A DNA stretch of 64,000 nucleotides. Origin: Palaeococcus pacificus DY20341. GTDB taxonomy: Archaea > Methanobacteriota_B > Thermococci > Thermococcales > Thermococcaceae. The notes beneath the pieces are model-generated. The model was not told where the DNA came from. It worked only from the letters and a program-made list of their open reading frames with translations, and did not search any database. Positions 52,081-53,321 of this stretch are shown here, one piece after another. Location of the stretch: NCBI RefSeq assembly GCF_000725425.1, contig NZ_CP006019.1, positions 372,001 through 436,000 of the forward strand, written 5' to 3'. Every line of letters begins with the position of its first letter. Positions within the stretch are counted from its first letter, which is position 1. The position numbers and the translations under genes were made by a program.

Positions 52081-52422
52081 ATGAAAGCTAACTGTGGTGA
52101 ATTTATTGACAGGGGAACTTATAGAAAGTGCCCTCTATTCAAAGGGGAGCTTCCGGATAACAGCTTCGCCCAAATAGTTGAGATCAAGCCAAAACAAACT
52201 GTTGCAAGGCATTATCATAAAGAACAGTATGAGCTCTTCTACATTATAAGCGGCGAGGCAAAGCTTGGGATTGGTGAAGAGACGTATGAGACAAAGCCGG
52301 GAGATATATATCTGGTGAAGCCGGGAACTATTCACTGGGTCGCTAATGAAAGCAACGAACCTTTTAGGCTCTTTGTGGTCAAGCTAAACTACTCTGGCGA
52401 TGATAGCGTCTGGCTGAAATGA
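52081..52422 (+). CDS. Cupin-domain protein
   Basis: A 113-residue single-cupin beta-barrel. The two metal-binding motifs are present: HYHKEQYELFYIISGEAKLGIG (His, His and Glu) and PGDIYLVKPGTIHWVANES (third His). This is often a metal-dependent dioxygenase, isomerase or sugar-binding fold; the small size leaves it open. Start ATG 52081 follows GGTGAAAA. It stands alone between the divergent tldD and a rhomboid-like gene. Confidence 0.85.
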   Translation: MKANCGEFIDRGTYRKCPLFKGELPDNSFAQIVEIKPKQTVARHYHKEQYELFYIISGEAKLGIGEETYETKPGDIYLVKPGTIHWVANESNEPFRLFVVKLNYSGDDSVWLK

Positions 52423-52499
52423 GGGGTTACTTTTTTATTTTCTTTTTAACAAGAAACATAACGATAAATATATATGGATTCTGAAACAGAGATATACTT

Positions 52500-53321
52500 A
52501 TGTCAGTGTTAACGGAAAAGAGAAAGCCCTTTGCTAAGATTTTTGTATCTATTATCATTGTTATGATACTCTTTTACTTGGCGCCTGATTGGGTTCAAAG
52601 AAAGCTGGCCCTCAATTACCGAACGTTTTCCTTTTTGAACTCGTTTGACTTTTTGCGACTGTATACAATGCACTTTGTTCATAAAAAAGCCCGTCATCTT
52701 TTGGGAAATCTCATACCCTTTATCGTTGTGTTTCCCATGCTTTATTATCTTGCAGAGGCTAGTGATGATTTAATAACCTTCAAGCGCTTTCTGTTTTTCA
52801 CGCTCGTGCTTCTTCCTCCAGTGTTGGCTCTCGTAGACCTTCCAATCCTAAGAGCATATGGGTTCGTATATGGAATGGGTTTTTCGGGCATAGATATGGC
52901 TTTTGTTGGTGCTTTACCTTATTTCACTGGCCGCTATCTTAAAAGGAAGCTGAACTTTGATGTTTCCCCGATTTTATTAACGCAATCTCTCCTTCTGTTT
53001 TTCACAGCAGTGATTGCATATATTTATGGGATGGTTGTTGTATGGGTTGCTCTTCTGATAGGCACACTTTCAATGCTCGTTGCTCCAGTAAAAACTGCTT
53101 TTGAAGAGTATGATAAAATGTTTGGTAAGAATGCAAGAAGGTTTAAGTGTTCAGTATTTTTCTTTATTTTGCTTTCTATGGGTGTTAGTTTGCCTGTGAT
53201 ATGGGGAGCTTTCCCCAAACAGCTTACAGAAAGCTTTGGTCTTGTTGATGTTGTGCTTCACTACCTCGGTCTTTTCAGCACACTTTATATATTTCCCCTT
53301 ATTAATGAGAAGCTCTCATAA
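52500..53321 (+). CDS. Rhomboid-like intramembrane protein
   Basis: A 273-residue protein with six to seven membrane helices and the residue pattern of rhomboid proteases: His66 and Asn70 in RHLLGNLIPF (oxyanion and structural positions), Ser129 in GMGFSGID (GxSG catalytic motif) and His254 in VLHYLGLFS (catalytic base in the last helix). Spacing is consistent with a Ser-His dyad, but the rest of the sequence is divergent and family membership needs testing. The ATG at 52500 has no ribosome site; a TATA-like AAATATATAT at 52466-52475 suggests a near-leaderless message. Confidence 0.6.
   Translation: MSVLTEKRKPFAKIFVSIIIVMILFYLAPDWVQRKLALNYRTFSFLNSFDFLRLYTMHFVHKKARHLLGNLIPFIVVFPMLYYLAEASDDLITFKRFLFFTLVLLPPVLALVDLPILRAYGFVYGMGFSGIDMAFVGALPYFTGRYLKRKLNFDVSPILLTQSLLLFFTAVIAYIYGMVVVWVALLIGTLSMLVAPVKTAFEEYDKMFGKNARRFKCSVFFFILLSMGVSLPVIWGAFPKQLTESFGLVDVVLHYLGLFSTLYIFPLINEKLS

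Follow-up and report, generated by a model that had tools for sequence, protein, structure and literature searches.

A divergent rhomboid-like protein of Palaeococcus pacificus and its archaeal relatives with a lengthened stretch between the presumed catalytic serine and histidine

Introduction

A 273-residue protein encoded by Palaeococcus pacificus DY20341 in all likelihood represents a divergent archaeal branch of the rhomboid superfamily and works as an intramembrane serine protease, as judged from residue conservation and a predicted model. Rhomboids are usually seen as a six-helix core to which helices are added terminally; a branch whose extra helices separate the catalytic residues would reveal the degree of stretching that the core tolerates without loss of activity. 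The organism is a hyperthermophile, and its proteins may suit structural work; the branch also provides a handle on the roles of archaeal rhomboids, for which PMC11985538 describes the natural substrates as yet to be found. We did not find the branch described in the literature searched, which lay outside subscription papers and supplements, and we make no claim that it is unpublished.

Results

The gene lies in the 64,000-nucleotide stretch of P. pacificus DNA analysed here (the window), at 52500..53321 on the + strand with an ATG start and a TAA stop, just where an earlier note made from the sequence had placed it. Its GC fraction is 0.389, compared with 0.438 for the whole window. An AT-rich, TATA-like stretch at 52464..52477 (+), about 30 nt 5' of the ATG as read from the sequence, is possibly the gene's own promoter and would leave a very short leader. 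The DY20341 genome forms a single contig of 1,859,370 bases, the size given for strain DY20341T in PMC4574382. Upstream on the same strand stands a gene for a short protein (52081-52422), cupin-like by appearance; in the congener G002, a gene for a relative of this protein (L052 7804-8142) lies directly downstream of the rhomboid gene, so that both rhomboid-carrying genomes of the genus have this neighbour, on opposite sides.

The earlier note had read rhomboid motifs in the translation, and all of them are found at the positions it gave: HLLGN with His66 and Asn70, GFSG with Ser129, and VLHYLG with His254. To gauge their conservation, we aligned the window protein with 35 relatives that are 15-48% identical to it. 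His61, His66, Asn70, Gly127, Phe128, Ser129 and His254 are invariant in the eight closest Thermococcaceae sequences, and Asn70, Pro106, Gly127, Ser129 and His254 remain so in all 36 proteins. The oxyanion-side motif H61-x4-H66-xxx-N70 (52680..52709, +), where the second core helix begins, keeps each of its two histidines in 34/36 proteins; both exceptions, L102 (4917-5819) and L105 (4794-5672), come from two genomes of one genus and lack both histidines while retaining the Asn, the Ser and the late His. For the oxyanion role of this HxxxN motif we presume equivalence with GlpG. GFSG (52878..52889, +) carries the presumed nucleophile Ser129 (codon 52884-52886), and its second glycine, G130, is kept in 25 proteins and altered in 11. 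An F238-P239 signature (53211..53216, +; F in 28/36, P in 35/36) precedes the helix of H254-Y-L-G257 (53259..53270, +), the last one, in which His254 is the presumed catalytic base and G257 is kept in 35/36. At one compared position the 16 canonical archaeal rhomboids show F in 7, A in 6 and S in 3, and that residue alone is therefore no mark of the branch.

Because the key residues are invariant both in the eight closest relatives and across the 36 proteins, the motifs are not there by chance, and constraint at exactly the catalytic positions among proteins so dissimilar argues for activity. The window protein by itself has no Pfam match, even at E<=10, and no sequence match in the PDB, but its relatives do pass the curated 22.6-bit cut-off of the Pfam Rhomboid family PF01694. 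G019 (25.2 bits), G029, G110 and G022 exceed it, as do two haloarchaeal members with 29.6 and 30.5 bits, while G014 scores just below, and 14 of the 36 aligned members match PF01694 at E<=1e-4. In a profile-profile comparison (hhalign), an 18-sequence family profile and the 16 canonical archaeal rhomboids gave an alignment of 80 columns (E 1.9e-7, probability 93.7), in which H66, N70 and S129 face their canonical counterparts H, N and S; a narrower eight-sequence profile aligned over just 29 columns, with a probability of 79.0. Searched against PDB sequences, the family profile found no rhomboid, only weak stretches of cytochrome oxidase and KdpD.

We then compared the predicted fold with known structures. 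An AlphaFold2 model built on eight related sequences reached a pLDDT of 84.6 and a pTM of 0.84, with helices at residues 64-87, 130-151, 157-175, 179-237 and 245-272. In agreement with the earlier note's placement of the motifs in membrane helices, His66 and Asn70 fall in helix 64-87 and His254 in helix 245-272 of this predicted model, with Ser129 just before helix 130-151. The best VIA-align match was GlpG (Z 11.8, 172/182 residues, rmsd 3.3), and ranks 1-31 were all GlpG or iRhom1, followed by a non-rhomboid row at Z 6.2; helical bundles can attain middling Z values by chance in this comparison. The top five Foldseek rows were likewise GlpG, at probabilities of 0.84-1.00 and an E-value for GlpG of only 0.041. 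A fold unrelated to GlpG, which the earlier note had named as an outcome that would speak against its proposal, is thus not what the model predicts. That the protein is an unrelated polytopic membrane protein bearing rhomboid motifs by chance is barely credible: the missing Pfam match and the Foldseek E-value could be cited for it, yet it is opposed by the relatives above the PF01694 cut-off, the profile-profile match and a fold match over nearly all of GlpG. We rejected this reading on the conservation in 36/36 proteins and the Pfam-level relatives.

The same data bear on activity. A rhomboid pseudoprotease of the iRhom or Derlin kind, which binds membrane proteins without cutting them, would account for the divergence outside the motifs, for the loss of H61 and H66 in L102 and L105 and for the presence of iRhom1 among the fold matches (Z 10.1), but the presumed catalytic Ser and His never vary in proteins whose identity to the window protein falls as low as 15%, which makes such a function quite improbable. 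Loss of Ser129 or His254 in close homologues, which the earlier note would have counted against itself, was seen in none of the 36 proteins. Its suggestion of an inactive relative finds no support in a GlpG-like predicted fold with both residues kept throughout; its principal proposal, a divergent rhomboid of an archaeal branch, is borne out by the relatives above the PF01694 cut-off, by the GlpG fold match and by a branch with support of 100/100 (see below).

The protein departs from canonical rhomboids in the stretch between Ser and His. The distance from Ser129 to His254, on which the earlier note does not comment, is 125 residues, roughly double the canonical one, and the corresponding spacing is 110-142 residues in all 36 long proteins versus 46-69 in the 16 canonical archaeal rhomboids. 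Hydrophobic peaks in this interval number three or four in 31 of the long proteins and two in the other five, compared with none to two in 16/16 canonical sequences. This difference in spacing fits about two added membrane helices between the catalytic residues. From the spacing and the hydropathy, we place an extra hydrophobic region at residues 179-237 (53034..53210, +), with hydrophobic parts at about 179-199 and 218-237 joined by a charged link. The model draws the region as a single 59-residue helix, which is probably a bent pair, because two hydrophobic stretches are split there by a charged one; an exact hairpin is putative. We take these observations to mean that the protein has some eight membrane helices and that the added pair follows the Ser helix and precedes the His helix, either before or after the fifth core helix. 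Such a count, estimated from spacing and hydropathy, lies outside the usual rhomboid topology classes of 6, 6+1 or 1+6 transmembrane segments, as set out in PMC12615303. These classes are no strict requirement, since UBAC2, TMEM115, RBL9 and Rho1 are superfamily members whose predicted topology deviates too, according to the same paper.

A tree of core pieces places the 36 long proteins on one side and the 16 canonical archaeal rhomboids apart from them with support of 100/100. Profile similarity governed the choice of its rows, and several terminal branches are long; what the tree describes is a separation from these 16 canonical rows rather than the phylogeny of rhomboids as a whole.

Full-length relatives occur in Thermococcaceae and in many other archaeal families. 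With the window protein as query, matches were found in 9/94 Thermococcaceae genomes, as eight intact genes and, in G005, as pieces in different frames. A profile of the eight gave matches in 10/115 genomes of the phylum, the tenth (G010) covering just 33 C-terminal positions, and a profile of 18 gave matches at E<=1e-3 in 41/396 archaeal genomes. By hand count, 26 of these 41 have full-length intact matches (8 Thermococcaceae and 18 others); G005 has a broken close copy and a more distant second one, and the matches in the remaining genomes are incomplete or broken and may in some cases be canonical rhomboids. A tblastn search of 72,556 plasmid records yielded ten matches, all haloarchaeal, seven of them with at least 80% query cover; no match was found in phage records by tblastn. 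The earlier note had thought that the branch might be unrecognised, which does not hold for two of the ten haloarchaeal plasmid relatives, labelled 'rhomboid family intramembrane serine protease', and holds for the other eight, labelled 'hypothetical protein'. Broken, second or partial copies lie at L011 4273-5095, L062 and L107 4947-5771: the copy in Thermococcus sp. JdFR-02 (L011 4273-5095) is a broken close one whose place is the same as that of the match in G005, and G005 also carries the more distant second member.

The window genome itself gave no match to a canonical rhomboid. Within Thermococcaceae, 69/94 genomes have a canonical rhomboid, a number obtained from the 72 genomes matched in the canonical search by subtracting three in which nothing but the long gene was matched. 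Of the 25 genomes that lack a canonical match, 7 carry the long gene (one of the seven being G005, with its broken close copy), compared with 2 of the 69 that have such a match (Fisher p 0.0011), and the figures become 7/16 versus 2/58 (p 0.00018) when only genomes that are >=90% complete and <=5% contaminated are considered. This complementary pattern is not independent of kinship, because whole genera are without the canonical gene. Most genomes of the genera g1, g4, g5 and g6 have no canonical match and nearly all of g2 and g3 have one; some Thermococcaceae genomes carry neither the canonical nor the long rhomboid.

Gene contexts vary, and no conserved partner emerged across the 39 clustered loci (9 Thermococcaceae, 10 plasmid, 20 other). 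At 6/9 Thermococcaceae loci the rhomboid gene adjoins a divergently transcribed gene for a multi-helix membrane protein (L047 5850-6953, L048 7876-9171, L050 6026-6943, L051 7854-8807, L053 6071-6940 and L011 3179-4213); these neighbours are fast-evolving and fall into three groups with no clear similarity between groups, and none adjoins the window rhomboid. In two related genomes (L094 3190-5900, L105 3523-7448) the rhomboid gene lies directly against one that by appearance encodes a putative type I restriction specificity subunit.

Near three haloarchaeal members, related secreted proteins are encoded (L065 854-2059, L067 4952-5848, L069 2960-4066) that combine C-terminal hydrophobic segments with a linker in which Gly, Ser and acidic residues abound; at L067 the secreted-protein gene adjoins the rhomboid gene, three bases upstream. 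We regard these proteins as candidate substrates.

The secreted proteins shared by these loci also speak for a sorting enzyme that resembles rhombosortases and clips C-terminal membrane anchors off a set of surface proteins instead of acting as a general rhomboid. The best NCBIfam model is the rhombosortase model TIGR03902, matched by 8/8 close relatives at E<=1 (best 4.1e-9) and by 15/36 members at E<=1e-3. Its equivalog cut-off of 84 bits is nevertheless far above the 17 bits of the window protein and the <=35.8 bits of ten others scanned singly, and a simple scan of the window found no C-anchored secreted protein. A His four residues past the catalytic Ser is described as the rhombosortase signature in PMC3237569; this His is absent in 36/36 proteins, which have S (15), A (10), M (4), G (4) or L (3) at Ser+4. 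Membership in the rhombosortases was rejected on the score below 84 bits and the lack of His at Ser+4, and a rhombosortase-like sorting role is in our estimate unlikely.

Discussion

Our preferred reading is a rhomboid-superfamily enzyme that is active as an intramembrane serine protease. In this reading, Ser129 would attack a peptide bond in the substrate's membrane helix, at its extracytoplasmic end, with His254 acting as the base, and His66 together with Asn70 would stabilise the oxyanion, while the inserted helical pair may pack beside the core and shape substrate entry. The most likely role in the cell is the cutting or release of surface or membrane proteins, which we favour because of the secreted neighbours and of the deletion phenotypes of Haloferax volcanii, in which, according to PMC11985538, motility, adhesion, biofilm and shape all change on deletion of the rhomboid Rho1. 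A broader joint reading, which we put forward tentatively and hold to be rather doubtful as a whole, is that the inserted pair serves as a dedicated dock or gate for substrates, that the enzyme cuts C-anchored surface proteins, whose genes adjoin its own in some haloarchaea, that the gene has spread sporadically, including on plasmids, and that it replaces the canonical rhomboid in part of Thermococcaceae.

Among known systems, GlpG of E. coli and H. influenzae, whose family PF01694 (Rhomboid) we take to be MEROPS S54, resembles the window protein in predicted fold over 172/182 residues and in the order HxxxN, GxSG and His followed by Gly, but it lacks the roughly two putative extra helices and has no detectable sequence match to it. 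We take the Ser-to-His spacing of GlpG to be about 53 residues (S201 to H254), against 125 in the window protein. The 16 canonical archaeal rhomboids, those of Thermococcales included, have HxxxxHxxxN, GxSG and His-xx-G in common with the branch and match its profile (E 1.9e-7), whereas they have the shorter spacing and the other side of the tree, and the window genome has no match to them. The rhombosortase model TIGR03902 is the best NCBIfam match and covers the part up to the Ser helix, but the long proteins exceed this 154-position model between Ser and His. H. volcanii Rho1 (HVO_1474), likened to the window protein here by published description, is an archaeal rhomboid reported to have nine transmembrane segments (PMC4343526), and PMC12615303 calls its topology far from usual.
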